From Isoetes taiwanensis (taxonomy: Eukaryota; Streptophyta; Lycopodiopsida; Isoetales; Isoetaceae): DNA of 64,000 bases. The notes beneath the pieces were generated by a model that saw only the letters and a list, made by a program, of their open reading frames with translations, made no database searches and had not been told where the DNA came from. The stretch's first letter is position 1. The number at the start of each line of letters is the position of its first letter. A program made the translations under genes and the position numbers. Location: NCBI GenBank assembly GCA_021234155.1, contig JAJEKV010000544.1, positions 1 through 64,000 on the forward strand. Reading direction: 5' to 3'. Positions 19,226 through 40,752 of the stretch are shown piece after piece.

Positions 19226-21504
19226 ATATAATCGCTTCTAAGCGATGGGCATAGCATAATGGTTAGACAACGAATTTTGACTTATAATCTATGAATTTGG
19301 TTTAGTCTATTGAATAGGATAGATAATATTGGTTTAGGGTCTCTTTTACTGGCGCCCGGCAAAACCACAGGACAAGGCTAATATGAATGGAGCATAAATT
19401 GCCTATAGCATTGCGGGTCAAGGGGGCATCTAATAGTGTAACAGAAGGTGGCATACATTTTGCCCCAATTTGGTTATATCCTAACCCTATAGTATTATTT
19501 GAAATTGTAATGATGATTACATATGAAGGATAGATATTGTTATGCAATTTTACCCCCTAGCATTAAATTAGGGATTTGGTTAAACTAATACTATGATTAC
19601 AGGCCAAAGGTTGGTGGGAATTCAAATATCTGGTTGTAGCATAGGGTATGTGTTGGGGATGATAGGATCTAGGATCCCAAATGGTAAAATATATGGATTT
19701 TTATGGTGTAAATATGGACACAAGGTGTTGGTAACATATGCTCGATATTTGTTACAATAGTACCTACAAAAGTTTTTTAAGCTAACCTAATGTCAAAGAA
19801 AGGTAAACCCTAGCGATGGTGGCGTCTCACGACGACCTTGGGCTGATAAGTCTTGGCGGTCCCCTAACAAACCATGGATGACCTTTTGATTGTTGGTTAC
19901 ATGCAAAATATCGACCTTTCGGATTGATCGAGGGGAGCAGTAAAAATTTGTGATGATCTTCTTTCTTAATCTTCTTGTAATATTTGCTTAGAAACAGATT
20001 GGCTCACGGTTTTCTCGTAATATGGTTTTAACCTCCATGCTATATAATAAAGATCGGATCCCTCTTCTATGAACACGATTTTTTGGGCATGAGCAAAGGC
20101 GGCCCGACAGGAGGGGTGTGCAATAAAGAGGCGGAACCGGATCTAAACTCATTGAATTCCTTAGAAGAAATGGCTTAGAGCATAGTAGCCCATGACCTAC
20201 TAAGGCTCAACCGTTAGAATTAATGCGAGCCCATGGATTAGATCCAAATAGGGAAAAGGGTGATTTCTGGAATTATAAAATTCCTCCCTAGTCCGAATGC
20301 ATGTGGGAATGTCCCTAGATGCGGTAATACATCAGCGGCAATGTGGAGGTTGTTGCGAGACTCAAATTGATGAAATCGAAGAGGATTACGATGATGGAGT
20401 GCAACCAGGTTCCTACAATTGAATTGTTTAAATCTTTGGTTTCCTAATCATTTAATGTAATATTCAAGGTTATAGAGGGGTGTAGCACTACAGGTGCTGT
20501 ATTTGTAGGCATAACAAGGTTACCATGATTATCTGATTCTGCATGAATTGCTCATTGAAATTAAGATGTAATGTTATAATCCATAGCTTTTTAACATATG
20601 GTAAGAGTATATTTAAGTTAAGCTGTGGGTAAAGTAGAAATGCCAAGAGAGTTCATTGCTTACTTGTTAGCAGTAGAATTTTTACCCTCTTAAGGCTAAT
20701 TAGTTCTATTTGCTGCAGGTAACCGAGCTCTCTTCTCCTGCATCTGGCTCTATTTTTTGCATGGAAGCATGAATGATTGAAGAATGTTTTTATGTACTCT
20801 TTGTATTTATATTGTATACAACGTTTATGGTAAGATTTTGATCCCTTCAAGTATAATTATTCAATGGAGTAACTGTATGGTAATCTCTTAATCCTTTTTG
20901 AGTATTGATATTTTGAATATTATTTATGGCTGTTTTTTACTGCTTGGTAAAACATGTTTGGAGCACCTTGAAGTAATTTATGGTAATATAATTATGGATC
21001 TCGGCCTTTGTTGCATTTTCTAACATTCTGTTTCCATATTTGCCTACTTTTGGTTGCGTCCGGTTGGTTTTAAATTTGCATGGTGTTTTCTGGTTAATTT
21101 TAAGACTTTGGGTATTGCCCTTCTTTTAGATCATCTTTGGGTTTTGACACATCTACGAGTTCTCTTCAACAAATCTATTCCAAATTGTTGTACAAGTTAT
21201 TTTACAAGTTATTTAGCAATTTTATGGTACAAAGATATTGCTTGTTTGTGGATGATTTCCTTTTGCTACATTTATTTGAAAAGGTTAACATGTATCAAAG
21301 TAGTATGGTCAAGGTTAAATAATTGTATTATTAAATGAGTTGAGCTGGTCCTTATTTTTAGACTTTTGGTCTAAGGTTAAACTATTATATGATTACATGA
21401 TCTCTAAGGGCTCCCTCTTTAGGGTCCAATAAATTCAGTAGTCTTATTTAGTTAGGTTAAGGCTATTTGAATGTCTAGTCAAGTAGAGGCTTGGTTAGGC
21501 CAAT
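19226..21504. other. No gene recognised; possible retroelement remnants
   Basis: A weak tRNA-like stretch ('tagcataatggttag', about 19250-19265) lacks a proper T arm and is not called. Near 20040-20170 there is a TATA/AATAAA-like cluster that could belong to an LTR, but no matching partner copy or primer-binding site was found. Otherwise there is nothing I can support. Confidence 0.4.
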
Positions 21505-22356
21505 CTATATAAATATAAATATATATCCGGTAGGAGACGGATGGACTTAATCACTATGCAAAACATGGCAGTAAATTTAATGAGCCAAATAGAAGGGTAA
21601 AAGCCTTGGCCACGTCCATGCAAGAACTGCCTTTGCATGCATCTGGTAGGAGACAGATGGACTTATTCTCTATGCAAAATTAGGCAGTAAGCTTAATGAA
21701 CCAAATAAAAGGGTAAAAACCCTGGCCACTTCTGGTCCTGAAAATAAGAACATGTAAAATCAATTTTAAATCTAAAGTTGAACGATGGGGCATAGAATAT
21801 CAAGGGCCATCTCCCTAAATGTACAAGGCAAGAAGTGCCTTGCCATTAATAGAATCTAAATAAGGTTGGAATAACGGGTAAAACATGAAAAGCAGCATAG
21901 CATGAGTTTTACTGTCATATACTTAAGCATTCATTTATTTGGTTGTTTAACCAAAATTTGAGTGTTTTGCTAATAATAAGATCCTTTGGCATAGCATTGA
22001 ATCACCATTATCTATGTCAGTATACGATATCTCTAGGAAAATATTGTCTTAATTTACACCTATTAAATTCATTTTCTAGGATGCCTAAGACCATAATGGC
22101 CTCAATACTTGGGCCCATTTAATATGGTCTTTTTGGATCCTTAGGTCATAGATGAAATACTTAGGGAAGATCTCCCATGACTGAATTTATTATAAAGCCT
22201 AAATTCAATGGCCTTATCGCAAATGCAAATGCGACAAGGCATTTGTCACTTGTGTTCAAACCAAAACATTTTTTAATTAGAAACTCGTTCGGCCTTGCTT
22301 TCCTTGCTTTCACGGCGCCGACACTAATCTTAGGACATCTTGATGCAATGCGAACA

Positions 22357-22563
22357 ATGGGACCTAAGCGTGGAGCTGGCAGACCACCTGGTGCCAAGAA
22401 TAAGAAGGGTACCAAAGCAGATTTCGCTAACAGAAAATGCATAGTAAAAAATAAGAACACTGAGGCAGCAAATGTCATTCGCAAATGTCTACAAATAGCA
22501 GCAAATGCTAGATTTGGAGCTTCTAAGGATGATAGTGATCCTATGTACAACAATCCGGTGTGA
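22357..22563 (+). CDS. AT-hook protein, copy 1
   Basis: A 68-residue frame beginning MGPKRGAGRPPGAKNKK. The GRPPGAKNKK core at residues 8-17 is a plant-type AT-hook, which binds the minor groove of AT-rich DNA (known family property). The frame is open for about 60 codons upstream, but I chose this ATG because the hook sits directly after it and the upstream peptide is not conserved in copy 2. In copy 2 the protein runs on past this stop for about 20 residues, ending in a 'NFVDLDETHHEVK'-like tail. The stop here (TGA after NNPV) therefore probably comes from a lesion. It lies about 2 kb upstream of the cysteine-rich protein on the same strand, and could be its first exon or a separate small gene. 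Confidence 0.6.
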   Translation: MGPKRGAGRPPGAKNKKGTKADFANRKCIVKNKNTEAANVIRKCLQIAANARFGASKDDSDPMYNNPV

Positions 22564-23361
22564 ATCCGATTGGCCAATGCAAAAAGCCGGAGACCATAAC
22601 CCGTGGATTTGGACTTAAAGCATCATGAGGTCAAAGCGTGGCGTGGTTTGATTTCTAGGATACATTATGAGTAGAAATAGTGGTAATGTATCCCCTTGCA
22701 GATTTCGACTCCTGAAGCTACTTAATTAAAATCGTGCATGATCAAATCCTTCTCTATAATGCTTGTGAAGAATGTTTAAAGCAAGTTCGGCCATAGAAAA
22801 CATCTTGAGGCAAATGTTTGTATAAAATCATGGTACGATTTTCACATAAGAAGATGATTATGTTTATGTTTTCTTGCTATCAAAAGGATTCTAGCTTATT
22901 AACATAAAGCAAAATGCTTGTTTTTCTCGTTTTCTCTTGGGCGCCTATGCATAGCATTCTTTGCTGAAAAATGCACATGATTATTTAGGGATAAAGAGCA
23001 CCTCTGATGGCTTAAACAAGCAGGTGCTAGAACGTGAAATACCACTAAAATGCGAATTTTTTAAGCCTTATTTGGCTGGTGATGTAGCAGTGGCTTTGGC
23101 ATGTTAATCTATCACATATGGAGTAACTTTAAGCTGAATTTTAGAGTACTTATATTTTGATTAAAGCTTTCTATACTATGCACATCAATGCATCTAAAAA
23201 TTTAAGGCCGGATAAAAACGGGGATTCCTCCATGCTTACTGACCCTCTCCTCTTTACCAAATTCTTGCTAACGTGGAGTGCGGTTTGGCTGCGGTGTAAG
23301 CGTGGAGCTCCCCTTTTCTTGAATTTTATGGATAAGCTAGGATGTACCAACTATAGGCGAT

Positions 23362-23562
23362 ATGCAAGGACTCATCTTACTTGGAGCGGCTATTAATATT
23401 GCAGGATCTACTTTCAGTTTTCCTTTTGATTCTCATGTTACTGGAAAATTGCAGCTCTTTTTAGCTTATGTTTTGGCAACAAGAGAGGCTTTACTTGTAA
23501 CTCTGTACTATGGATATGGCATTGACACTAGCATCAGCAACTTTGGTGCTTTAGTAAACTGA
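23362..23562 (+). other. Hydrophobic small frame, copy 1
   Basis: A 66-residue frame (MQGLILLGAAINIAGSTFSF...), rich in Leu, Ala and Gly and possibly one or two membrane spans. Copy 2 has the same frame with only a few substitutions. The neighbouring non-coding sequence is just as conserved between the copies, so conservation does not prove coding. Function unknown. Confidence 0.25.
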
Positions 23563-24628
23563 AACATATCCAAAAATGGCATTCTGAATTTTTGTAGATC
23601 TTCATTACTTTTGAAAGGATAGAACATGGTTGCATTTTATTTATGCATGTGAAACATATAGGAATATTTGGGCTGAAAACTGGCTACTTGATTTTGGGCA
23701 GGAAGTTAGTTTATACGGAAAAAACATTCCCATTATTACTCAAAGGCCACAATCCTGTACGTTTCTAAATTAAGACTAGAAGCATGGCCATTTTCCTTAG
23801 TGTAACATGGGCCAGGGATGCTAGCCACAATTTAAGGCTTTTTACTGTCTTCATGGCACCTCTAGATAAGAATGGAAATGGATGTTCTACACATACAAGC
23901 TGAGGTAGATAAAATAGGGTCTTAACCTACGCTTTGCTTAAAGGCACAAAATTGAGCATGGCTGTAGCATTACAAGTCATTGATGGCTTAAATAGTAACG
24001 AACCGAATGCCACTTACTAGCTGGGCAGCTTGAGGTCTTACATAATGCACCTTAAGGTAGTACTTGATTTTGACCGTTGAAAAAATGCTTGCAGTAGCTA
24101 ATAGATTAACAATATGCTATGTTATTGAAGTGGAGTTGCATTTAAGCATAATACCTTGTAAACTTGTAGCAATAATACAATAATACCTTGTAAACTTGTA
24201 GCAATAATACAATAGCTGTGCAGAGGATACTCAGGGCCTGGGTAGTGCCAGGGCAGAATTTCTCATGCTTTGACGGAGTAGTCAAGTGTGGAGTATAAGG
24301 CTTAGGCTAGATTAGACCCTAGCAAAAGGAAAGTATATATGCTGAAACGTCTGTTCTCATGTTCAAGGACATGTAACCCTGACCTCTCTAATAATATCTA
24401 TACGGTTTGTTTTTCTTTTAAGCATAATACAGTACGTGTCACTACATACTTTGTCACTTTTTAAGTCTTACTTGGTACATCTTATTTCTGGTGTTTATGT
24501 CTCTTACACCTGTATGCTTTGTTAGCTGGTATCAATTCTTTTGCTAAGATGATTTTTCTAATAATATACGTGAGAAGGATGCAGGATTTCTATATCAGAA
24601 ATTTTAACTACTACATGTTTCTTAACAG

Positions 24629-25106
24629 GCAGCTGCAAAAGGTCCCATTGACACGGACAAGGAATTACTTTGGATTCGGAACTTCGGGGAAAATTGGATA
24701 CCAAGGCTCAAATTTGCCGGTACCAAACAAAGCGGTTCAAAAGCGGTTATAGTATGCTTCAATAATTGAGGGTTATACAAAATGGATTATTGTTTGGAAT
24801 TAAGCCTTGACGGATAGCGCATCATGTCTGGCCGCGCATCTTGGCCCATTGAATGGCTTTGTGTCCTTTTGAAAAATGAAGAGTAAAACTTAGAGGACTT
24901 TACAAACTGATTGACATCGTTTACAATAGCATGCAAAGCTTATTTGCAATAGAACGGAAGTGGATGATAATTTTGAAAAAGTCTTTGACAAAGGTAGAAA
25001 AGCTGGTTATTGGGAAACTATGGTGAAGTAGACAAAAGAAAGGAAAACAAAAAGTGGCAAAAAGGTCAATCCAACCCCACCCGGGTGGCGGCCAAAAGAA
25101 AAAGTA
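24629..25106 (+). CDS. N-terminal exon part of cysteine-rich protein, copy 1 (broken)
   Basis: A splice acceptor (cttaacag) precedes AAAKGPIDTDKELLWIRNFG and WIPRLKFAGTKQ, a lysine-rich segment that looks coding. Copy 1 hits a stop after 'VCFNN' where copy 2 reads on ('NNSAYTKSGLL'). Both copies then contain, with indels, a peptide like MKSKPEDFQNLIDIVYNSMQ and 'DDNFEKVFDKGKAGYWETMVK'. Together the copies indicate about 150 residues upstream of the main frame at 25107. Each copy is damaged at different CAG/CTG sites. Confidence 0.55.
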
Positions 25107-26261
25107 ATGCCCAGACTTGGCAATAGGTTGTTTAGCAGCATGGCTTTGGGCCTGGAAGAGGCCCCTCAGCAAGAAGCAACATACACAGCTGATACAGTGC
25201 TGCCACCACATGCTGAACTGAATGATGAAGAGAGATGCGTAAACCTGAATAGGTTGGACCTATATAATACCCCTATGTTTCCTATGTTATCTTCCAGTCT
25301 GGTGGAAGCACTTGGAGAAGAACAATCCCAAAACTTATGGGAGAGTGGTAACCTTGGTATTCGTGCACCTATATCTGTCCAAGCTTGGAAATATATGGCA
25401 GAAATAGATGAATCTCTACTTGAGAACGCTTACAAAGTTGTTGAAAGAGGGGAATACTGCATTGAGAAAGAAAAAATCAATGTCCCTTTCGACACATCCG
25501 TATTTGGAAAGGAGTGTCCCTGTCCTAATGGTCTTTTTTGCAATCAGAAGAATCATATGGCAAATATGACAAAACTAGAAGGTGACTTTCTTCTTAGGAA
25601 AATTTGGAGATGCTTTTGTCCTTACTTCAAATGTGCCTGCGAAATGCCGCCGCTATGCACAAAATGTGGAGATAATATCACCTGGTTTGATCAAGGTGTG
25701 TGGGCTATTCTAAACAATCTGGACATTGTTTTTCCAGAATTAGGATGCATTGAAGCCTTCCTGACCTTTATTGGCATTCTGAGCAACAACCTGCAGAAAG
25801 TTGTGTATGCCTTCCTCTCGTATCTAAAATACAGGAAAACAATCTACAACATGGCAACAGATCTTGGGGCTGACCCGAAAATGAATCTTGAAGCCAAGTA
25901 CGGTAATAGCCACATGGTTTTGGTCGCAGATATGATGCTCAGACCTGGGACATATGCCAAAAATGCTGCTAACACTATTTTAAACAGTAAGAATCAGGGT
26001 TTTAAAAAGCAAAGGCCCTCAAATTATGCCACCCCTGACAGTGTGGTGGGACGTTACTATCCACCAAGGATGTTCCACCGTGATAACAGGAGTGAAGAAA
26101 GAGCAAGTGGCAGCTCTGGTAGCATTCTGATTACTGGCACTACCACCACCAGTAACTCTGCTGTTGAACAAATGAACGAGGGAGATTTATCTGTTACTAA
26201 AGCGAATCTCACCACTCGGTTTACGGCAGACCCTAAAATCGTGGACCTTGATGACTCATAA
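25107..26261 (+). CDS. Cysteine-rich protein with SIM-like tail, associated with the reverse transcriptase unit
   Basis: An open frame of 384 residues, the longest non-LINE frame in the window; not matched to a named family. Residues 136-146 hold ECPCPNGLFC and residues 168-187 hold RCFCPYFKCACEMPPLCTKC, two clusters that look zinc-binding. Residues 205-250 are hydrophobic and helical. Residues 320-365 are Ser/Thr/Gly-rich and probably disordered. The C-terminus is KIVDLDDS, which fits a SUMO-interaction motif pattern (inference). Copy 2 carries the same stop, so the end is real. It is followed by about 370 bp, probably an intron or spacer, then the reverse transcriptase frame on the same strand, so it resembles an ORF1 partner. 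The true start is probably upstream (see 24629-25106). Coding is well supported by frame length and copy comparison; function is unknown. Confidence 0.7.
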   Translation: MPRLGNRLFSSMALGLEEAPQQEATYTADTVLPPHAELNDEERCVNLNRLDLYNTPMFPMLSSSLVEALGEEQSQNLWESGNLGIRAPISVQAWKYMAEIDESLLENAYKVVERGEYCIEKEKINVPFDTSVFGKECPCPNGLFCNQKNHMANMTKLEGDFLLRKIWRCFCPYFKCACEMPPLCTKCGDNITWFDQGVWAILNNLDIVFPELGCIEAFLTFIGILSNNLQKVVYAFLSYLKYRKTIYNMATDLGADPKMNLEAKYGNSHMVLVADMMLRPGTYAKNAANTILNSKNQGFKKQRPSNYATPDSVVGRYYPPRMFHRDNRSEERASGSSGSILITGTTTTSNSAVEQMNEGDLSVTKANLTTRFTADPKIVDLDDS

Positions 26262-26633
26262 AGAGGTTAGTAACATGATTACATTTTGCTGTTTAACACA
26301 GTTCTCTAGATGCTTATCTGGTATATACCATAAAATAATAGCTCTATTTTAGTTGGCTGATTATTAATACCCCCACATATCTGCCTAATGCTAAAAATAG
26401 GCTGCTAAACGAGTATAGAATTGGCTGCCATCGCCCGTTGACTATTTACAGATCCGTTTGGAAGGGCTTAGACATTTGGAGCAGTTGAATGCTCCTTCAG
26501 CTGTACCCGCACATCCACCTATAAGCGGTTGGAATGATTTAACATTTTTATCTTAAGTTATCTTAGTTTTCTTAATACTAGACTTAAGTAGCAGACTTGT
26601 CCACCCTTAGTGCTTATTCTGAGTCCCATACAG

Positions 26634-27514
26634 GAACCAGACACCGCCGATGCAACCGAACCTAGGTGGCTGGAAATGGATACAAACAATCGAATTTACA
26701 TAAAAACCAACAGAGAGGGTGAAAGCAAACGCATTGTGCATATCACCTACTGTTCCAAACTCATGGATGCCATTATTGTATGGGGATGTTCGAGAATCAC
26801 ATCATTCCTACTTATTTTGGGGAGATTGGCCTTGATGCCATTAGTAATACAATGTTCGGTGAAAATTTTGTCCCAAACTTTCGACCTTATCTATAAACGT
26901 TCCACACATTTGTTGACAAAGAAAGTTCCCAAATGCCCCCGCTCTAACCAATCCCACGGTTGACTATATTGACAAACGGCATGGCAACGTTCGACTCACG
27001 GACTTCAACATTATCGTAAAGCAGAAATTTAAGGAACCTTCTAAAGAAAGGTCTCAATCACATTCCTCACGGGAGGATGAATATCAATGAATGCTTGAGC
27101 ACGCCTTGGATGGCCTCCATTCCTTTCTCATGGTCAACGAGAATGGTCCTAGATATGTAAAGACCCAGACCACAAAGCCATGCAACCGATTGAAAGCTTG
27201 ACATTTAGAGAGAGTTCTTCTTGCTAATAGCATATCATAGCGAGTTACAAAGGTAAGTTTTCCCATTATATTCTTGAAGACGATGAAGATGCTATCAGCA
27301 ACCTCGAATGGATCAAGAAAAACTTATATGTGGCAGGAGTGGATAAAGCCACGAACAATCCCAGCTTCATGTGTCCGTTCTTGGCGAAAAGCCTAGCTTT
27401 GACTCGTCTGGGCAGTAAAGACTTCATTTCCAGCTGTGTTCCGGTTAATGAGATACAAAAAGAAATGAGCATTAGCATTTCTGAGTTCATCCCTATAGAA
27501 TACAATCACGGAGG
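26634..27514 (+). CDS. N-terminal region of reverse transcriptase protein (fragmented)
   Basis: After an acceptor (cccatacag at 26625-26633) the frame reads EPDTADATEPRWLEMDTNN and continues through 'KRIVHITYCSKLMDAI'. Frameshifts follow at about 26790 and 26940, then a segment near 27330-27500 holds GVDKATNNPSFMCP. That matches the D-K-x-x-x-N-x-x-x-V/M-C pattern at the N-terminal edge of some Penelope-related reverse transcriptases (family knowledge; inference here). Copy 2 carries the first 400 bp in better frame: SWKYCPKLSDLIYKPFHTFV replaces the broken copy 1 text. The region needs frame correction before use. Confidence 0.6.
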
Positions 27515-28402
27515 ATGCACCTCGACTACCATATTTATTATGCATCTACAAAGCACATAAAACTTGACTTTAGATGGATCACAAATGCCCATGGATCCGT
27601 TTTTTCTGAAATAGCTAATCTTGTGTCCCAAGGACTGAAAAACATCATTGATGTTTGGCCGCAGATTACTAGGGATTTATGCAAAAATGTGAGAATATTT
27701 TGCCCAAAAGGTTTCAGCCCTAACTGGCTTGTCGACTCCATCTATCAAGTATCTTTGAATTTACCAAAAAAGATTCACAGTGTTTATGTGGCCGACATCA
27801 CAAAGTGCTTTGAATCAATCCCTCTGGAGGGTGAGGATGGCCTTTGTTCCATCATGGAAAAAGTGATTGCAACAGCATTTCACTTTCAAAGGAAAATGAA
27901 CCCGAAAAATAAGCTATTCTTTAAGCGGTCAGATCCGGGGAATGGTTCTTTCATCACTAAATGGGACACCAGAGGTAAACAACCAGAGTGCTGGAACGAA
28001 ATAACATGCGAGGAATTCTGCAATATGAATGTGTGGCTACTTAGAAACTGTTGGTTGTGTAACAACGAATCGGCTTGGAGACAGTGCAGTGGAATACCAA
28101 TGGGATTTTCTTGTTCTCCCAATTGGTGTAACTTATTCCTAGCTTGGCATGAAGTACACTTTATTCTTAATCTAGCCAAGGCAGGAAGGTACAAGGAAAT
28201 AGAGAGATTCAAAGATTCATTTAGATACATGGACGACCTGTTACTAATAAATTGTGGAAATCCTTATGAGTTCTTTGATAAAACCTCAAGGATATGCATT
28301 TACAACATGGATTATGTCGGAAAATTAAGGAGGAGACCTCTAATTTCATTGGGAACACACCACAAGAAAGAATTGGACTTACCGCTAATTTTCCGAACAT
28401 GA
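27515..28402 (+). CDS. Reverse transcriptase, non-LTR, Penelope-like or related class
   Basis: A frame of 295 residues with the reverse transcriptase motifs in order: 'LDFRWITNA' (about residue 18), VADITKCFESIP with the first catalytic Asp (residues 92-103), GIPMGFSCSPNWCNLF (from residue 193), and FRYMDDLLLIN with the Asp pair (YMDD at 238-241, bp 28226-28237). After residue 260 a frameshift moves the protein into the frame of 28294-28491. The motif B form 'GIPMG..CSP..CN' followed by 'AWHE', and the YMDD box, do not match plant L1, Ty1/copia or Ty3/gypsy polymerases; they recall the Penelope-like and TERT-related group or the cellular rvt genes. No integrase, GIY-YIG or APE endonuclease was seen nearby. 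It sits directly downstream of the cysteine-rich protein. Confidence 0.75.
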   Translation: MHLDYHIYYASTKHIKLDFRWITNAHGSVFSEIANLVSQGLKNIIDVWPQITRDLCKNVRIFCPKGFSPNWLVDSIYQVSLNLPKKIHSVYVADITKCFESIPLEGEDGLCSIMEKVIATAFHFQRKMNPKNKLFFKRSDPGNGSFITKWDTRGKQPECWNEITCEEFCNMNVWLLRNCWLCNNESAWRQCSGIPMGFSCSPNWCNLFLAWHEVHFILNLAKAGRYKEIERFKDSFRYMDDLLLINCGNPYEFFDKTSRICIYNMDYVGKLRRRPLISLGTHHKKELDLPLIFRT

Positions 28403-28800
28403 AAATCAGAATTATAGATGCTAGCCTTGGGCTGTTTAAAACCTCAAGTATGACACAAAAGGACTCACTACCCTTTGTTGCAAAAGTATGATATTAACGG
28501 ATAGGATGCCGCCCTATTTCGGGCCAAAGAAGGTGATTTGTTCACAAGTTATGCCTTGTCTCTATACACATATACCAATTCAGAGGTAGCCTACTCGGGA
28601 TTTGGCAGGATAGGTAGGATGGATTTGTAGAAAATGGATTTGATCATAAGACTATTCTACCTAAATGTTACCTTGGTACTTGAACAAAAATTTCACGGAC
28701 TTAGGTTCCCAAAGAAAGGACCTTATCGAAATTCTTAAAAAGCGTGTACTTTTCCTTGTTTCCCTTGCTTTCCTTGCTTTATCTACAAACTTTAGGTTTA
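28403..28800 (+). CDS. C-terminal part of the reverse transcriptase (frameshifted)
   Basis: The frame from 28294 gives 'NFPNMKIRIIDASLGLFKTS' and 'KDSLPFVAKV' up to 28491. This corresponds to the 'nFLdmkI ... KrDslPF' segment that follows the YxDD box in this polymerase class. Further scraps ('GFGRIGRMDL', 'MDLIIRLFYLN') follow in other frames to about 28740. The end of the protein is not clear. Confidence 0.5.
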
Positions 28801-28828
28801 TTTCTTGGTGAGTAGGGTCCTAGCGAAG

Positions 28829-28901
28829 TGCTAGGTTCCCCTCACCTAGCATTAATACTTGCCCGGATTCGGGGCCTACTTCCCGGTGCAGGGAGGTAGG
28901 C
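28829..28901. other. Two hairpins before duplication copy 2
   Basis: TGCTAGGT (28829-28836) pairs perfectly with ACCTAGCA (28844-28851) across a 7-nt loop. GCCTACTTCCC (28874-28884) pairs with GGGAGGTAGGC (28891-28901) with one mismatch across a 6-nt loop. They lie immediately before the start of copy 2. Confidence 0.65.
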
Positions 28902-29763
28902 TTACATATATAAATATATAAATATAAATATATATGGGTAGGAGACGGATGGACTTAATCACTATGCAAAACATGGGTAAATTTAATGAGCCAAATAGAA
29001 GGGTAAAAGCCTTGGCCCCGTCCATGCAAGAACGCCTTTGCATGCATCCGTAGGAGGAAGGATGGACTTATTCTCTATGCAAATTTTAGTGAAGCTTTAA
29101 TGAACCAAATAGAAGGGTAAAAACCACGGCCACTTCTTGTCATGAAAATAGAACATGTGAAATCAATTTTAAATCTAATGTTGAAGCGATGGGGCATAGA
29201 ATATCAAGGGCCATCTCCCTAAATGTACTAGGCAAGAAGTGCCTTGACATTAATAGAATCTAAATAAGGTTGGAATAATTGGGTAAAAAACATGAAAAGC
29301 ATAGCATGGTTTTCACCGTCATCTATTTAGTCATTCATTTACTTGGTTGTTTAACCAAAATTTGATCGTTTTGCTAATAATAAAACTTTGACAGTGCATT
29401 GCATTAGCAGTATCTATGTCACTTCACGATATCTCTAAAATATGAGGAAAATATTGTCTTAATTTCCACCTATTAAATTAATTATCTAAGAAGCCTAAGG
29501 CCATAATGGCCTCAATACTTGGGCCCATTTAATATCGGGTGCTGGATCCTTAGGTCATAGACTAAATACGGGAAGATCTCCCATGACGAATTTATTATAG
29601 GCCCTAAATTCAATGGCCTTATCTGGCGGCAATGCAAAGAAGGCATTTGTCACTTGTGTTTCCAAACCAAAACATTTTTCGTAGAAACTCTGTTCCGGCC
29701 TTGCTTTCCTTGCTTTCCTGGCGCTTCGACACTAATCTTAGGACATCTTGATCTGTCTGAACA

Positions 29764-30043
29764 ATGGGACCTAAGCGTGGAGCTGGCAGACCACCTGGTG
29801 CCAAGAATAAGAAGGGTACCAAAGCAGATTTGCCAATGAAAATGCATAGTAAAAATAAGAACATCGTGGCAAATGTCATTCGCGAAATGTCTACAAATAG
29901 CAGCAAATGCTAGAGCTGGAGCTTCTAAGGATGACCGTGATCCTATGTACAACAATCCAGTGACGAATCCAGTGACGAATGCAAAAGCTGGAGACTATAA
30001 CTTCGTGGATTTGGACGAAACGCATCATGAGGTCAAAACGTAG
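29764..30043 (+). pseudogene. AT-hook protein, copy 2 (frameshifted)
   Basis: Same start and AT-hook as copy 1. The frame is broken after 'KGTKAD' by small indels, then resumes with AANARAGASKDDRDPMYNNP and a tail containing 'YNFVDLDETHHEVKT' before TAG at 30041. 'FVDLDE' resembles a SUMO-interaction motif (hydrophobic residues followed by acidic ones); this is inference. The lesions fall at sites where copy 1 has CAG or nearby bases, so they may be sequence errors. Confidence 0.55.
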
Positions 30044-30759
30044 CGTAGTTTGATTTCTAGGATACATTATGAGTAGAAATAGTGGTAATGTATACCCTTG
30101 CAGATTTCGACTCCTGAAGCTACTTAATTAAAATCGTGCATGATCAAATCCTTCTCTATAATGCTTGTGAAGAATGTTTAAAGCAAGTTCGGCCATAGAA
30201 AACATGCTGAGGCAAATGTTTGTATAAAATCATGGTCTGATTTTTCACATAAGAAGATGATTATGTTTATGTTTTACTGCTGTCAAAAGGATTCTAGCTT
30301 ATTAACATAAGCAAAATGCTTGTTTTTCTGTTCTACTGGACGCCTATGCATAGCATTTACTGCTGAAAAATGCACATGATTATTTAGGGATAAAGAGCAC
30401 CTCTGATGGCTTAAACAAGCAGATGCTAGAACGTGAAATACCACTAAAATGCGAATTTTTTAAGCCTTATTTGGCTGGTGATGTAGCAGTGGCTTTGGCA
30501 TGTTAATCTATCACATATGGAGTAACTTTAAGCTGAATTTTAGAGTACTTATATTTTGATTAAAGCTTTCTATACTATGCACATCCAATGCATCTAAAAA
30601 TTTAAAGGAGCCGGATAAAAACCGGGGATTCCTCCCATGCTTACCTGACGGCCCTCTCCTCTTTACCAAATTCTTGCTAACGTAGGTCTGGTTGGCTGCA
30701 GGTAACGTGGAGCTCCCCCCTTTTACTGAATTTTATGGATAAGCTAGGATGTACCAACT

Positions 30760-30969
30760 ATGGGCGATATGCAAGGACTCGTCTTACTTGGAGCGGCTAT
30801 TAATATTGCAGGATCTACTTTCAGTTTTCCTTTTGATTCTCATGTTACTGGAAAATTGCAGCTCTTTTTAGCTTATGTTTTGGCAACAAGACAGGCTTTA
30901 CTTGTAACTCTGTACTATGGATATGGCATTGACACTAGCATCAGCAACTTTGGTGCTTTAGTAAACTGA
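30760..30969 (+). other. Hydrophobic small frame, copy 2
   Basis: A 69-residue counterpart of the copy 1 frame, here with an ATG three codons further upstream (copy 1 has TAG instead of the ATG-forming sequence). Not recognised. Confidence 0.25.
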
Positions 30970-32040
30970 AACATATCCAAAAATGGCATTCTGAATTTTT
31001 GTAGATCTTCATTACTTTTGAAAGGATAGAACATGGTTGCATTTTATTTATGGATGTGAAACATATAGGAATATTTGGGCTGAAAACTGGCTACTTGATT
31101 TTGGGCAGGAAGTTAGTTTATACGGAAAAAACATTCCCATTATTACTCAAAGGCCACAATCCTGTACGTTTCTAAATTAAGACTAGAAGCATGGCCATTT
31201 TCCTTAGTGTAACATGGGCCAGGGATGCTAGCCACAATTTAAGGCTTTTTACTGTCTTCATGGCACCTCTAGATAAGAATGGAAATGGATGTTCTACACA
31301 TACAAGCTGAGGTAGATAAAATAGGGTCTTAACCTACGCTTTGCTTAAAGGCACAAAATTGAGCATGGCTGTAGCATTACAAGTCATTGATGGCTTAAAT
31401 AGTAACGAACCGAATGCCACTTACTAGCTGGGCAGCTTGAGGTCTTACATACGACCTTAAGGTAGTACTTGATTTTGACCGTTGAAAAAATGCTTGCAGT
31501 AGCTAATAGATTAACAATATGCTATGTTATTGAAATGGAGTTGCATTTAAGCATAATACCTTGTAAACTTGTAGCAATAATACAATAATACCTTGTAAAC
31601 TTGTAGCAATAATACAATAGTCTTGTGCAGAGGATACTCGAGGGCACAGGTAGTGCCGTGTAATTTCTCATGCTTTGGACGGAGTAGTCAAGTGTGGAGT
31701 ATAAGGCTTAGGCTAGATTAGACCCTAGCAAAAGGAAAGTATATATATCTTTGAAACGTCTTTCGTTCTCATGTTCAAGGACATGTAACCCCGACCTCTC
31801 TAATAATATCTATACGGTTTGTTTTTTCTTTTAAGCATAATACAAGACGTGTCACTACATACTTTGTCACTTTTAAGTCTTACTTGGTACATCTTATTTA
31901 AGTGTTTATGTCTCTTACACCCGTATGCTTTGTTAAATTTGGTATCAATTCTTTTGCTAAGATGATTTTTCTAATAATATCGTGAGAAGGATGCGGAGAT
32001 TTCTATATATCGTAAATTTTAACTACTACATGTTTCTTAA

Positions 32041-33661
32041 TAAAGCGGTACCAAAAGGTCCCATTGACACGACAAGGAATTACTTTGGATTCGAGAACTT
32101 CGGGAAAATTGGATACCGCAAGCTCAAGCGCACAAGTACCAAACAAAGCGTTCAACAAGTTATAGTATGCTTCAATAATTCAGCTTATACAAAAAGCGGA
32201 TTATTGAGCTGAATTAAACCTCGACAGATAGCGGTATGCTCATTGCTTTTATCTTGCTTCGTGAATGGCTTTTGTGTCCTCTTTGAAAAAATGAAGAGTA
32301 AACCCGAGGACTTTCAAAACCTGATTGACATCGTTTACAATAGCATGCAAGAGCGTATTTGCAATAGAGCGGAAGTGGATGATAATTTTGAAAAAGTCTT
32401 TGACAAAGGAAAAGCTGGTTATTGGGAAACTATGGTGAAGTAGACAAAAGAAAAGGAAAACAAAAAAGTGGCAAGAAAGGTCAATCCACCCATGCCCCGC
32501 AGGTGACCAAAAGAAAAAGTAATGCCTGCATTTGGCAATAGGTTGTTTAGCAAAGATGGCTTTGGACTCGGAAGAGGCCCTCGAAAAGCTCAACATATAC
32601 ACACAACATCTGATCTTCGCCACCACATCTGAAGCCTTGAATGATGAAGAGAGATCGTAAACTGAATAGGTTGGACCTATATAATACCCTATGTTTCTAT
32701 GTTATCTTCGGTCGGGTGGAAGCACTTGAGAAGAACAATCCCAAAACTTATGGGAGAGTGGTAACCTTGTATTAGATGCACCTATATCCTGTCCAAGCTT
32801 GGAAATATATGGCAGAAATAGATGAATCTCTACTTGAGAACGCTTACAAAGTTGTTGAAAGAGGGAATCTTTGCATTTGAGAAAGAAAAAATCAATGTCC
32901 TTTCGACACATTAGTATTTGGTGAAGGAGTGTCCCTGTCCTAATGGTCTTTTGCAATCTAAGAAGAATCATATGGCAAATATGACAAAACTAGAAGGTGA
33001 CTTTCTTCTTAGGAAAATTTGGAGATGCTTTTGTCCTTACTTCAAATGTGCCCCGCGAAATCACGCTAATGCACAAAATGTGGAGATAATATCACCGGTT
33101 TGATCAAGGTGTGTGGGCTATTCTAAACAACGGACATTGTTTTTCCGAATTAGGATGCATTGAAGCCTTCACGACCTTTATTGGCATTCCGAGGCAACAA
33201 CTGAGAGAAGTTGTGTATGCCTTCCTCTCGATCTAAAAACACGGAAAACAATCTACAACATGGCAAGCGAGATCTTGGGGCTGACGAAAATGAATCTGAA
33301 GCCAAACGGGTAATAGCCACATGGTTTTGGCCGCAGGATATGATGCTCGACCAGGACATATGCCAAAATCTTTGCTAACACTATTTTAAAAATGTTAGAA
33401 TCGAGGGTTTTAAAAAAGCAAAGGCCCTCAAATTATGCCACCCACGACGGTGTGGTGGGGCGTTATTATCCACTAAGGATGTTCCCGTGATAACAGGAGT
33501 GAAGAAAGAGCAAGTGGTGCCTCGGTAGCATTCTGATTCGGCACTACCACCACCGGTAACTGCTGTTGAACAAATGAACGAGGAGATTTATCATTACTAA
33601 AGCCGAATCTCACCACTCGGTTTCGTGAGACCCTAAAATCGTGGACCTTGATGACTCATAA
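32041..33661 (+). pseudogene. Cysteine-rich protein, copy 2 (many frameshifts)
   Basis: Copy of 24629-26261. Recognisable pieces include MKSKPEDFQNLIDIVYNSMQ (about 32290), ECPCPNG (about 32926) and 'RCFCPYFKCA' (about 33032), and it ends with the same TAA after a SIM-like tail. The upstream third is better preserved here than in copy 1, while the middle carries an indel or scramble at nearly every CTG or CAG of copy 1. If those are sequencing errors the gene may be intact. Confidence 0.65.
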
Positions 33662-34040
33662 AAGGTTAGTAACATGATTACATTTTGTACATTTAACCAC
33701 AGTTCTCTAGATGCTTATCGGTATATACCATAAAATAATAGCTCTATTTTTAGTTGGCTGATTATTAATACCCCACATATCGCCTAATGCTAAAAATAGG
33801 TCGCTAAACGAAATATAGAATTGGCTGCCATCGCTGATTGACTATTTACAGATCCGTTTGGAAGGGCTTAGACATTTGGAGCAGAGTTGAATGCTCCTTC
33901 AAATTGGTACCACTGACATCCACCTATAAGCGGTTGGAATGATTTAACATTTTTATCTTAAGTTATCTTAGTTTTCTTAATACTAGACTTAAGTAGCAGG
34001 ATTTGTCCACCCTTAGTGCTTATTCTCGAGTCCCATACAG

Positions 34041-34442
34041 GAACCGCATAATCGATGCAACCCGAACCTAGGGGAATGGAAATGGATACAAACAATCAAT
34101 TTACATAAAACCACGGAGAGGGTGAAAGCAAGCGCATTGTGCATATCACCTCTTTGTTCCAAACTCATGGATGCCATTCGTATCAGGGATGTTCTGAATC
34201 ACATCATTCCTACTTATTTTGGGGAGATTGGCCTTGATGCCGTTAGTAATACAATGTTCAGCTGGAAATACTGTCCCAAACTTTCTGACCTTATCTATAA
34301 ACCGTTCCACACATTTGTTGACAAGAAAGTTCCCAAATGCCCCTGCTCTAACCAATCCCTGGTTGACTATATTGACAAACAGCATGGGTAGCGCGTTCGA
34401 CCTACGGACTTCAACATTATCAGAAACAGAAATTTAAGGAGA
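34041..34442 (+). pseudogene. 5' part of reverse transcriptase protein, copy 2 (truncated)
   Basis: After the same cccatacag acceptor, this copy reads through the first about 130 codons of the reverse transcriptase protein, including 'DVLNHIIPTYFGEIGLDA' and 'PFHTFVDKKVPKCPC', then the duplication ends. The catalytic core is absent from copy 2. Confidence 0.65.
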
Positions 34443-34581
34443 TCCCTAGATCAGTATAAATTTTGAAAAGTTCGCTAATTTAGATGCATGGCTGATTGCT
34501 GAATTTATGCTCATTCATGCAGCAGATACTTGAACAGGTATGGTTTGCCTGAAACTATTTTTCTAACTGATTCTTGAACAG

Positions 34582-34693
34582 GAAGGAAGCAATAATATCA
34601 CACCAAGCATGGTGATTGTAAATCAACAAGAAGAAACAAGGACTAGTGGAGTATTGCAGAAAAGAATGGGCATTGGAGGCATGCACATTCTAG
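34582..34693 (+). CDS. Exon-like segment of unknown gene
   Basis: A 112-bp segment bounded by a good acceptor (ttcttgaacag) and donor (CTAG|GTAATG). It reads EGSNNITPSMVIVNQQEETR and continues to 'GIGGMHIL'. It is unique sequence just past duplication copy 2 and could belong to the repeated unit's original downstream gene. Not recognised. Confidence 0.35.
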
Positions 34694-34761
34694 GTAATGT
34701 CTACTGCCAACTTTTTGTTCTTAAATAAAAAAAAGCATATGCAAAAATAAGTGAGCAATCT

Positions 34762-34953
34762 GTGTATGACTATACTACAAAAGTACGGCCTCTGGCCAAA
34801 CAAAGCAAGCCCTTGGGCATACCATTGAAAAGCAAAGATGCCACTGATATGCAGTATTGGCTTCTATGGTGTAAAGATGCCACTGATATGCAGGAAGTCT
34901 TTCCTGGAATCAAGTTTGACGTAACTATACTTATCAGAGAACTATTGTCGTAA
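34762..34953 (+). CDS. Terminal exon-like frame with duplicated KDATDMQ
   Basis: An open frame of 63 codons ending TAA, entered from upstream without an ATG. The heptapeptide KDATDMQ occurs twice, from a 21-bp direct repeat (aaagatgccactgatatgcag) with about 21 bp between copies. The C-terminus is '[15 protein letters not shown]'. It looks coding in composition; the family was not recognised, and its phase does not obviously match the 34582 exon. Confidence 0.3.
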
Positions 34954-34989
34954 AGGTAACATTCATTATTTCCCTAGTTTTTCCACACA

Positions 34990-35220
<231 letters not shown>

Positions 35221-35229
35221 CTTATGTTT

Positions 35230-35545
35230 GTCCTCTTGAATCAATAGTTGATCCCAGATCCTCACGGCTCCACGTGGCTTTGGGGCGTGTCGTGTGGCCC
35301 GGATGGCTTGGGAGTTTGTGTATAGACATATAAGGCGATCCTACGGTCGAGTTGATTCGATCCTCGATTGCCGGTCCGAGATCCTACTGGCTCCACGTTG
35401 GTTTTGGGACACATCCTCACGGTGCACATGGTTTGGGAATTATATGTAATCGATCTAATGGCCGAGATTTGCTTTTATATGGTGAGATCTTGATCGTTGA
35501 TCGAGTCTAAGATCCTAAGGCTCATGTTGAATGCTTTCGTCCTTA
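35230..35545 (+). repeat. Imperfect tandem repeat, period about 125 bp
   Basis: The block 'agatcct...ggctccacgt(t)gg' occurs near 35257 and 35380, with a third partial copy from about 35509 ('agatcctaaggctca'). One copy has 'cctcacggctcc' where the next has 'cctactggctcc', again a CTG/CG difference. Confidence 0.7.
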
Positions 35546-35574
35546 AGGAAAGGCTTTTTTAAAATTCTTTATGT

Positions 35575-35650
35575 TATTGGGGGGATTGAACCCCGGTCTC
35601 AACCCTCCTAAACCCCCCTCTAACCACTAGACCAAGCATTAGTTCTATGA
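35575..35650 (-). mobile_element. tRNA-derived (Pol III box) element, SINE-like head
   Basis: On the minus strand, 'tggtctagtggttaga' (bp 35620-35635) is a good A box and 'ggggttcaatcccc' (35581-35594) a good B box, spaced as in a tRNA gene. There is no matching acceptor stem at the ends, so it is more likely a tRNA-derived SINE head or tRNA relic than a working tRNA gene. Confidence 0.5.
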
Positions 35651-36260
35651 ATAATTTATGTTTCAAATATAGTTAAGGTAATGTTCTAATTAAGATAAAA
35701 TACAATATAACATTCTAGATAGTCCAAGAAAAGTTCTAGAATGTTCGGGGCTCTGAAAGTTCTAAAATCTTCTAGAATGTTGAAGAATTAAAAGGAATAT
35801 AAGGAAATCTCATAAATTGTAAGAGAATGTAGGAAAATATTTATAAGTCCCGACGGAATCGCTTAAAATCTAGTTGAATCTAAGGGATCTTCATAATATC
35901 TAAGAGAATCTAAGAAAATCTTGATGAAATCTTAGAGTTTTTTTAAAGATTTTGCAAAGAGCCACAATAGAATGTTCTAAAATGTTTTATAAAAAAGGTG
36001 TACAATATAAATCTTGAAAAAAATGTTCTAGATGCTTTCGGGCAAAAGCGCCTAAGTCTAAAATAGAAAGTGTTGTAGAGATGTTGCATAGATCCAAAAT
36101 AGATTATTTTGGAAGGTTCTAAATGCTCATGGGTAAGCACCTCAATCAAAATTGAAAATTCTAAGAGAATCTAGGGGAATCTTCATGAATGCTAAATATA
36201 GTACATAGAATGTTGAAGAATATAGAGGAATCACAAGAGAATCTCAAGAAAATGGTTGGT
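35651..36260 (+). repeat. Degenerate GAATCT/GAATGTT-rich array
   Basis: Repeated 'tagaatgttc', 'agagaatcta' and 'ggaatcttcat' words at irregular spacing, followed after about 80 bp by a TA tract. This is the same general order as the arrays at 1-6.4 kb and 18.6-19.1 kb. Confidence 0.6.
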
Positions 36261-36337
36261 TACCTAGGGCAAGGCAGGGCCTAACAGAGTGAAGAAAACG
36301 TGTTAAAATTGGAACAATGCAGAGTAGGGCGTGTTAA

Positions 36338-36478
<141 letters not shown>

Positions 36479-36479
36479 T

Positions 36480-37249
36480 CGATTCAAGCTTAAAAAGCTT
36501 GACATAAATCGATACGCTTTTCTCCAAAAAAATCATACTTTCGTGGATCATAAGGCCCCTTGCGTCCTACGAGAGCAATGTCTCGATTTACTCTTGAAGA
36601 GGATCGCCATAAAGGCTCCATTACTCGGCGACAAAGGGGGATTGCTCCCATTGTTGGATTAAAAACAGAGGGTTAAACAATGTAGAATGCACTCAATCTG
36701 GTGCTACAAGGGCCTGTGCTGGTGGCCATGGCTACGGTACATAATGCTTGCTTTTCCATGCGCTCCATATTCTTTTGCTTAAAATTTTCGTTTGAAAAGA
36801 ATCGTAAGGTCGGTTCCTTACGCCTATCATTTCCTTCTATTGCAAATGCGGTGGCATTTATGGTCATCCTCACCACCGTCAAACCAACCGATCAAGCTCA
36901 GTCCATTCTGCAGGACAATAGGAACGGAATGATGCATCCGCTATGCATCGTTTATTATAATTTCTCGCCCTTCTACGTTAGAAATGAGCTTCACTAAATT
37001 CCCAATCTTTCAGAATCAACTAAATCGCCAATCTTTCAGAGTGCCCACACAAGGCATCTTCCCTTTTTTTGCAGTCTTTGTTTGCCGAGCTCCACACTGC
37101 CAGTATGTCTTCAACGCCATATATGCGCATGTAACAATTAAAGATGTCGATTGATGGTGTCGAAATTTTGTATAATTTCGATAAATTACATCGTCCATAT
37201 GCCTTGCTTCGCCCAAAGAGAACAATGCAGTTATAGTGGCAGTTGATAT
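36480..37249. other. No feature recognised
   Basis: Short frames on both strands here, for example 36701-36997, have no family motif. The region may be the 3' continuation of the PPR relic on the minus strand, but this cannot be shown. Confidence 0.4.
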
Positions 37250-37690
37250 AATGTCATAGTCTTTTTTTCATAGCTTTGAAGTACTTAATGCCTTCACACA
37301 CAAGGCCAGCTTGACTGCAGGCAGCAAGGATAGAAGCAAATGTAATGTCATTTGGCATAACACCCAAGCCAACTTTACATTGCCCTGCCGAGCATATCCA
37401 GTGATCATAGCACCCCATGCTTCCATATTGTGACTTGGTAGTCTCAAACAAACTGTCGGCCATCATCTATATTTCCACACATATCAACAAGGGCATTTCC
37501 TATAACGACATGGGATTGGGGACATGCTTCGTTAGATAATTTGTTGATGGATATCTCTTCCCCACTCTATTTCACATTGCCACAAGCTTTTAAGATGCCC
37601 AAAAATATGATTCTATTAGGCTTTATAGGTGCCCCATATAATGGCACCCTCTGATTTTACCATTTGCTTGTGATGTGGAGTTTTAACGTC
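37250..37690 (-). pseudogene. Pentatricopeptide repeat (PPR) gene relic
   Basis: Minus-strand peptides in several frames match the PLS-type PPR pattern in the right order: 'PNRIIFLGILKACGNV', 'HVVIGNALVDMCGNIDDGR', then 'PNDITFASILAACSQAGLV' with 'EGIKYFKAMKK'. PPR proteins bind organellar RNA and act in editing or splicing (known). There are at least three frameshifts and stops in about 440 bp and no start or C-terminal E/DYW domain was found. It is a fragment, either a dead copy or heavily mis-called sequence. Confidence 0.7.
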
Positions 37691-39700: not shown

Positions 39701-39759
39701 AAATTGAAGGGTGTTGCATAAATTTAAGCGTAAGAGGGTATAGAGAATAGATGGTATAA

Positions 39760-40752
39760 AAGAAGGAAATATTATGCCGACTTATCGGAAGAGAGTAAAG
39801 ATATCATACGTCAAAGAGAGAGAGAACGCTATGCAAACTTGCCCGAGGAGGATAGGGACATGATACGACGTAGAAGAATAGAACGCTATGTAGGGCTATC
39901 TGAGAACGCTAGAGTGAGAATGCGACAAAGGGAGGTAGAGCGCTATGCACAACTATCTGAGGAGGATAGAGAATGCATACGGCAAAGAAATGTAGAACGC
40001 TATGCAAGTCTAACTGAGCAAGGTAAACTTAGAATGAGAGACATGGCTAGGGAGCGTTTAGGACGATCTCATTATATACCTGTACTGCAAAGAGATGCAA
40101 CAACATCAAGCCAAATACAAGTTCAAGCAAATGGTACAGAATATGAGGTAATACCAAGAGCTTCTGCACATTGGCAAGCTCGTGCACAACACATGAACTT
40201 GGCGACACATCGAAGTTATGTGATGTGCTCATGGAGTAAGAGGTGCGGGTATTGTCAAATTCCTTTGCTCAACGTCGAGCAAGATGGATTCTGTTGCAAC
40301 AAAGGGAAATGGTTGTTGCCATCTTTACCCTCCTTGCCTATGGCACTATACAACCTGTACAACATGCAAGAATTTGCTGAAATGGCGAGAAAAGTAAACA
40401 AATTATTACCTTGGTGTGTTTTGGAGTAAGTGGCGGATTAAGTAAATTTAGATTTTCCTTAAATTCGGTAACTATTACAGACGAACATATCATCGACTAT
40501 GGCCCACAACAGAAACAGGACATCCAATACATTGGTATATCTATGATGAATCCGAACGATATACAGAAGCCCGAAACCAGAGAGTTCCATTTCAATGGAA
40601 ATTAATCCATTTATTCAAAACCTTCGAACCATAGGAAGTATGCATTTACCATCAGCATACATTACCATCCAAGGAGTAGTTGCAAGCAATGAAATTGCAG
40701 CCATTGCAGATGCCAATAACACGGCCGATGTTGCTCCTCGGATCGCTGGCTT
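39760..40752 (+). pseudogene. Helitron RepHel N-terminal region
   Basis: Starts with four or five tandem copies of an about 24-residue charged repeat (for example ERYAQLSEEDRECIRQRN, bp 39780-40040). Then a cysteine-rich segment, CGYCQIPLL ... CCNKGKWLLPSLPSLP (bp 40240-40335), matches the usual Helitron 'CC..GK..LP.LP' block. A frameshift near 40420 is followed by a segment in mixed frames up to about 40750 ('IGSMHLPSAYITIQG', 'APRIAGFWVRQPS'). The repeated N-terminus may be a coiled or basic nucleic-acid-binding region. Confidence 0.75.

Follow-up and report, generated by a model that had tools for sequence, protein, structure and literature searches.

A probable Penelope-like retrotransposon, dispersed in many copies and endonuclease-deficient, in the lycophyte Isoetes taiwanensis

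Among Penelope-like elements (PLEs), the Naiad/Chlamys elements carry an N-terminal GIY-YIG domain, and Coprina belongs to those lacking an endonuclease (EN(-) PLEs). Canonical PLEs are described as tandem copies with pseudo-long terminal repeats (pLTRs) that cut AT-rich DNA, start reverse transcription internally and carry a 30-40 bp tail (PMC11167929), with partial tandems and intron retention (PMC3846280). In plants, where PLEs as a whole are called patchy, EN(-) members have been recorded from Selaginella and conifers (PMC9033089); terminons are described in PMC12477314, and PLE mobilisation is called poorly understood (PMC11167929). Here we analysed an intron-containing reverse transcriptase (RT) unit in a stretch of 64,000 nucleotides of Isoetes taiwanensis DNA (contig JAJEKV010000544.1, positions 1 to 64,000; hereafter the window) together with its relatives across the genome. 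We read it as a multicopy, dispersed, endonuclease-deficient Penelope-like retrotransposon of a lycophyte, with a probability of roughly 0.7; membership in the PLEs is argued from its structure and from a strong RT match to animal sequences that we take to be PLEs.

The element's pLTRs in tandem, the introns that it keeps, its AT-rich targets and its optional tail are all traits known from PLEs (PMC3846280, PMC11167929). It shares them, partial tandems included, with canonical endonuclease-bearing PLEs (Penelope/Poseidon), with which it would also have an internal start of reverse transcription in common. Unlike these, the Isoetes copies have two protein-ending exons, and neither a GIY-YIG domain nor a hammerhead was found in them; the pLTR, a direct repeat of 2.7-3.2 kb where its end was read, compares with about 0.2 kb in Adineta elements. 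With EN(-) PLEs (Athena/terminons; Selaginella, conifers) the element shares an RT without an endonuclease and a lycophyte host, whereas the Isoetes copies lie scattered over scaffolds, at TA or T-runs, and no telomeric arrays accompany them; for Selaginella the comparison uses the published description. An earlier note, made from the window sequence alone, had called the unit the best candidate in the window for an undescribed system, which is too strong, since layout, introns, targets and tail are known in PLEs and an EN(-) form is already listed for another lycophyte (PMC9033089). For the exon-2 partner protein, the start-exon arrangement and the fixed pLTR ends we met no counterpart in those parts of the PLE descriptions that were compared. 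The word Penelope is absent from the main text of both Isoetes genome papers, so that such copies may have been filed elsewhere, and no title or abstract opening on PLEs, lycophytes or ferns, terminons or Naiad was found to describe the Isoetes element.

The window copy

The window unit spans about 21506-28934 (about 7.4 kb) and is followed by a second copy, the direct repeat pairing 21506-27035 with 28915-34440. The features, all on the plus strand, are as follows.

21506..24340, plus strand: 5' pLTR equivalent, comprising a TA-rich tail, an upstream region, exon 1 and the beginning of intron 1, from the direct repeat and genome-wide recurrent ends
22357..22629, plus strand: predicted exon 1, an ATG start exon for a basic protein with the AT-hook-like KRGAGRPPG, from sequence
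22630..24628, plus strand: predicted intron 1, phase 0, from splice-site reading
24330-24340, plus strand: intron-1 end site AAAGTATATAT, the 3' end at 24340 lying inside intron 1, from sequence reading
24629..26265, plus strand: predicted exon 2, Cys-rich partner protein, from a 14-copy alignment
26266..26633, plus strand: predicted intron 2, acceptor catacag/GAA, phase 0, from exon 2-RT pair comparison
26634..28815, plus strand: predicted exon 3, RT, frame-broken in the window, from motifs, RVT_1 and relatives
28884..28900, plus strand: G-rich block just ahead of the tail, reading CGGnnGGnGGnAGG in relatives and altered in the window
28901..28934, plus strand: TA-rich tail opening the next unit, from comparison of copies
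about 28901-31746, plus strand: second pLTR occurrence, from the direct repeat
28915..34445 (end approximate), plus strand: second head-to-tail copy, ending inside exon 3, from the direct repeat and matches to the element

The earlier note had bounded the feature at 24629-28800. Its start stands, being the first base of predicted exon 2 on the acceptor side; its extent does not, as the unit is larger and a second copy runs to about 34445. The RT motifs, Cys-rich open reading frame (ORF; 25032-26261), AT-hook-like ORF and splice-like acceptors that it had reported all lie where it had placed them. Exon 1 ends at an in-phase GT (GAG/GTC) at 22630 and its reading frame is broken; exon 2 is open only over 25032-26261, with its stop TAA at 26259-26261 and the donor GT at 26266. 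Exon 3 carries the motifs DKA, RWITNAH, motif A VADITKCFESIP, B' GIPMGFSCSP and C FRYMDD, and a C-terminal KYDKRD is seen in relatives.

Aligned to the genomic copy L009, the window exon 3 is 93% identical and shows 50 indels, of which 48 shift the frame; another copy, L010, shows 3 (2 frameshifting) at 91%. The corresponding figures for exon 2 are 29 (28 frameshifting) in the window and 6 (6 frameshifting) in L010. This surplus of frameshifting indels in the window looks more like read error than decay. The assembly (1.66 Gb, 204 scaffolds and 909 contigs) is described as built from Nanopore reads (PMC8566536).

Copies, ends and selection across the genome

The genome copy number, a check suggested by the earlier note, was obtained by searching 1,658,258,908 bases in 1,110 contigs. 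The window RT gave at least 129 scored matches from 3,010 first-look candidates and the exon-2 protein at least 102 from 2,635, both scored counts being lower bounds. Twenty copies (L009-L028) were taken from the 129 RT places; they were picked for open frames and are not a random sample. RT frames of 666-740 amino acids are present in all 20, and exon-2 frames of at least 511 amino acids in 14 (about 510-560 where open). Many RT relatives in the genome have open frames, and long open copies, whose complete absence the earlier note had named as an objection, do occur outside the frame-broken window copy. The ratio of nonsynonymous to synonymous divergence (Ka/Ks) is 0.10-0.15 in 9 of 11 RT pairs (Ks being saturated in the other two) and 0.11-0.22 in seven exon-2 pairs; both proteins are under strong purifying selection. 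The pair L010/L011 shows a Ks of 0.058 in exon 2 and 0.223 in the RT, and these two copies may be mosaics through recombination or conversion.

Put together from the 20 copies, the element opens with a pLTR that includes the start exon and a portion of intron 1. Next come exon 2, exon 3, the G-rich block, a TA- or T-rich tail and a second pLTR, whose end tends to fall at a fixed intron-1 site. The 5' part is repeated after the RT in 16 of the 20 copies; the repeat opens at the tail, or in L011 at GG after the tail, in 15 copies, and elsewhere in L027. Eight copies were extended by 2.3 kb for end reading: L009, L011 and L020 stop at a common intron-1 site (GTATATAT) and then enter a TA run, the end of L025 lies at a T-run, in L018 the match is interrupted at another point and later resumes, and L022, L026 and L028 continue to the end of the fetched sequence. 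Three end searches were made, with 40 candidates scored of 247, 553 and 237 and the probe's own element counted in each. With a 400-base probe for the 3' end, 11 of 41 matches stop exactly at the intron-1 site (query base 200); for a second 3' end type, 5 of 40 rows stop at base 204, two others at 212 and the copy of L025 itself at 219; at the 5' start, the tail (base 150/151) is the exact starting point of 7 of 51 rows, and 11 of 51 are short fragments. Arrays of 7.3-7.8 kb units occur on scaffolds C2, C1050 and C1078, the last unit closing at the intron-1 site, and the 5' flanks of L012 and L026 are, by eye, 3' ends of other copies. A TA run lies past the 3' end in L009, L011 (short) and L020 and a T-run at the 5' flank in L025, L026 and L028, the tail being absent at the 5' start of L011; inside such microsatellites target and tail are hard to tell apart.

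Directly before the tail, CGGnnGGnGGnAGG or a near variant is present in 12 of 12 aligned copies and in L025, L026 and L028. These 15 blocks were seen without pattern selection and five more through a pattern search, which gave every one of the 20 copies one hit, at most about 420 bases past its RT frame. The block takes the form GG-N2-GG-N-GG-N2-GG in L009-L028; because the alignment rows are hits of a pattern that fixes most letters, the invariance across the 20 rows arises partly by construction. A two-tier G-quadruplex, read from the GG pairs only, or a protein site is possible. A hairpin over the block was rejected, having no covariation support, with 211 of 500 shuffles at least as paired.

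Exon usage and a proposed cycle

Exon 1 was recognised by its AT-hook-like core in 15 of 20 copies, and in all 15 conservation ends at the (E/Q)-V junction. We read its KRGAGRPPG as AT-hook-like from the motif; Pfam returned no family for the window exon-1 ORF, and L025 and L028 carry other basic start-exon candidates. In the exon-2 protein, C297, H310, C336, C338 and C347 (L009 numbering) are invariant in 14 of 14 sequences. Pfam matched a SWIM zinc finger in 6 of these 14 (best E 0.036) and no solid family, and a search of the PDB with the exon-2 profile gave no hits.

In 15 of 18 copies only 1-5 nt separate the exon-2 stop from the GT donor that follows it; a script pattern detected this in 13, and L025 and L028 were read from the bases. 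L022, L023 and L026 do not show the feature. The exon-3 acceptor is a phase-0 CAG in 18 of 20 copies, L022 and L023 giving none. The conserved PEL of exon 2 has no preceding Met in 9 of 12 exon-2 starts, and neither does the invariant His of exon 3 in 9 of 18 copies (the script did not locate this His in L019). Intron 2, at least 158 nt beyond the exonic length, is present in all 39 adjacent exon 2-RT pairs, which were picked by eye from the RT and exon-2 match lists and do not include every row. Introns are thus retained through transposition, and the unit carries introns as the earlier note had proposed, the splicing itself being predicted. Because the exon-2 stop sits just before the donor and the introns are in phase 0, a single start exon is probably shared by two alternative terminal exons.

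In the cycle that we propose, the pLTR would drive a single transcript across a (partial) tandem. A start codon and a basic N-terminus, AT-hook-like in most copies, would come from exon 1. Spliced to exon 2, this exon would yield the Cys-rich partner protein, ending just before the exon-2 donor; spliced directly to exon 3, past a skipped exon 2, it would yield an RT that begins with the same basic stretch. The template would be the unspliced RNA, so that introns would survive. Reverse transcription would begin in the downstream unit, within its intron 1 (at ...GTATATAT or ...GGGTTTTTTTT), with a TA-microsatellite or T-run target providing the primer, and would end at the tail, leaving pLTR-body-pLTR copies, sometimes inside the end of an older copy.

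An alternative for the same element is an RT translated from an exon 1-exon 2-exon 3 mRNA, with the exon-2 stop overcome by reinitiation, readthrough or frameshift. The donor beside the stop would join exon 2 to exon 3 neatly, and an early Met is present in the exon-3 starts of 9 of 18 copies, L009-L012 among them. However, the stop-to-donor length modulo 3 is 1 in seven, 2 in eight and 0 in none of the 15 copies, so exons 2 and 3 hold no constant frame relation, and in the other 9 of 18 copies the invariant His lacks a preceding Met; we consider this route unlikely. Returning to alternative splicing from a shared start exon, we would only tentatively, and with some doubt, see in the element a further PLE structural class, in which the Cys-rich exon-2 protein takes the place of GIY-YIG and alternative splicing joins an AT-hook start exon either to that protein or to the RT. 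The shared start exon would then deliver both proteins to TA microsatellites.

Reverse transcriptase relatives, domain searches and remaining alternatives

RVT_1 matched the window RT at E 5e-6 (26.8 bits, below the Pfam cut-off of 29.6). All 20 genomic copies matched it at E <= 1, the best at 8e-8 (first member 23.5 bits, also below the cut-off); weak matches to AIG1 (4 of 20, best E 0.0035) and DUF1564 (3 of 20) were also obtained. Motifs A and B' are spaced by 99-101 amino acids in the 16 copies where both were found. An AlphaFold model of the window RT core, made without an alignment, was unusable (pLDDT 36). No hits came from the PDB with the RT profile, and nothing useful from the collections viral_contigs and genome_contigs with this profile or from viral_contigs with two peptide probes and with contig L048.

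Probing with an animal RT peptide led to L048 and L049, contigs with an animal-type retroelement RT in genome assemblies of mussel gill symbionts; they are presumably host (mussel) DNA. Against 245 sequences, the Isoetes RT profile (A1) matched L049 at 1.1e-17, L048 at 7.3e-14 and a second L048 frame at 0.0011; a LINE-like (long interspersed nuclear element) ORF of the window scored E 0.41, and no Gypsy RT of the own genome appeared at E 5 or below. The B', C and YDK[RK]D motifs are common to the Isoetes RT, L048/L049 and the Naiad/Chlamys PLEs; the N-terminal GIY-YIG of Naiad/Chlamys was not found in the Isoetes copies, and the mussel copies lack the N-terminus. With the mussel RT as query, 141 places were found in the Isoetes genome. 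One of them, L050 (C1007:2319900-2326900), is a distant lineage of the same RT with an exon-2 partner in pieces (E 3e-9, 6e-9 and 3e-5) and a phase-0 acceptor; its 7 kb hold no G-rich block, and the stop-to-donor feature is not clear. The match to the mussel RTs, the tandem pLTR layout and the intron retention agree with the Penelope-like option of the earlier note.

Pfam found no endonuclease in the 20 RT and 14 exon-2 proteins, as the earlier note had noticed for the window, and among these proteins also no RNase H, integrase, protease or LINE endonuclease (EEP or restriction-like, RLE). An LTR retrotransposon with an aberrant RT, its pLTRs being true LTRs, would account for ends that recur on both sides and for the purine-rich block before the 3' repeat; the three missing domains, the Gypsy RTs, the retained introns and the tandem arrays all speak against it, and we regard it as quite improbable. 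A domesticated cellular RT gene (rvt), an option raised by the earlier note, or a telomerase paralogue would suit the introns and the large A-B' insertion, also a feature of telomerase reverse transcriptase (TERT), and is scarcely credible given the 129 RT and 102 exon-2 places scored among candidates numbering in the thousands, the repeat and tandem anatomy and a host TERT at a separate locus, L037. L037 is likewise an RT, would have the A-B' insertion in common and holds an intron at that position; it differs in its TRBD domain, and its sequence match is marginal. We also rejected a LINE, which the lack of an EEP or RLE endonuclease and the score of the LINE-like ORF do not favour, and a telomeric terminon (an EN(-) PLE such as Athena/Coprina). 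Tandem telomeric repeats were absent from the 20 loci and the window, the one exception being a CCCTAA/TTTAGGG palindrome that L025 carries in each of its two repeats. Of the 16 copies on scaffolds longer than 5 Mb, 12 lie more than 1 Mb from the scaffold end.

Several observations weigh against a Penelope-like element with a shared start exon. No GIY-YIG domain was found in the 20 RT proteins (Pfam, E <= 1) or the 14 exon-2 proteins (E <= 5), and an Rfam scan of window positions 20500-37500 and six copies found no hammerhead; hits of one hammerhead core pattern in element loci fall, by eye, outside the pLTRs. The PLE identity of the mussel RT family is our assumption, and the TERT match is marginal, the host TERT exon scoring 0.0027 and the best shuffle 0.026 in the search of 245 sequences. 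L014, L016, L023 and L024 show no repeat after the RT, 30 of 41 matches at the intron-1 end site run through or stop elsewhere, and no clear target-site duplication was seen by eye in the ends read, which sit in simple repeats. The GRPPG core was not found in L024-L028, exon-1 donors are weak (GAG/GTCAAA and similar), acceptors were hand-picked among several AGs (that of L019 exon 2 loosely), the junctions are predicted and the splice choice is read from sequence; the early Met residues of exon 3 belong here too.

The genome holds 121 GIY-YIG matches. By eye, all of them are more than 10 kb away from each of the 129 RT places, and at C1040 an exon-2 place and a GIY-YIG match are 8.9 kb apart. 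Many of the GIY-YIG matches are small ORFs, as in the three loci read (L039 1468-1824, L040 1468-1938 and L043 1447-1815), and it is conceivable that such ORFs, away from the RT copies, supply a nuclease in trans.

Elsewhere in the window, two long TA microsatellites, 1.1 kb apart, lie just past the incomplete second copy (35097-35217 and 36343-36479). A 231-amino-acid ORF of degenerate repeats of about 19 residues (RERERYANLPEEDRDMIRRRR) on the plus strand at 39734-40426 overlies a 57-base tandem repeat at 39805-40018, and LINE-like ORFs on the minus strand at 57221-59146 hold, in two frames, an endonuclease-like stretch (ILIGDFNGR) and an RT stretch.

As a high-copy, dispersed family that lacks an endonuclease and is under strong purifying selection, the Isoetes element offers a plant system for asking how PLEs prime without GIY-YIG, and also why they keep introns.

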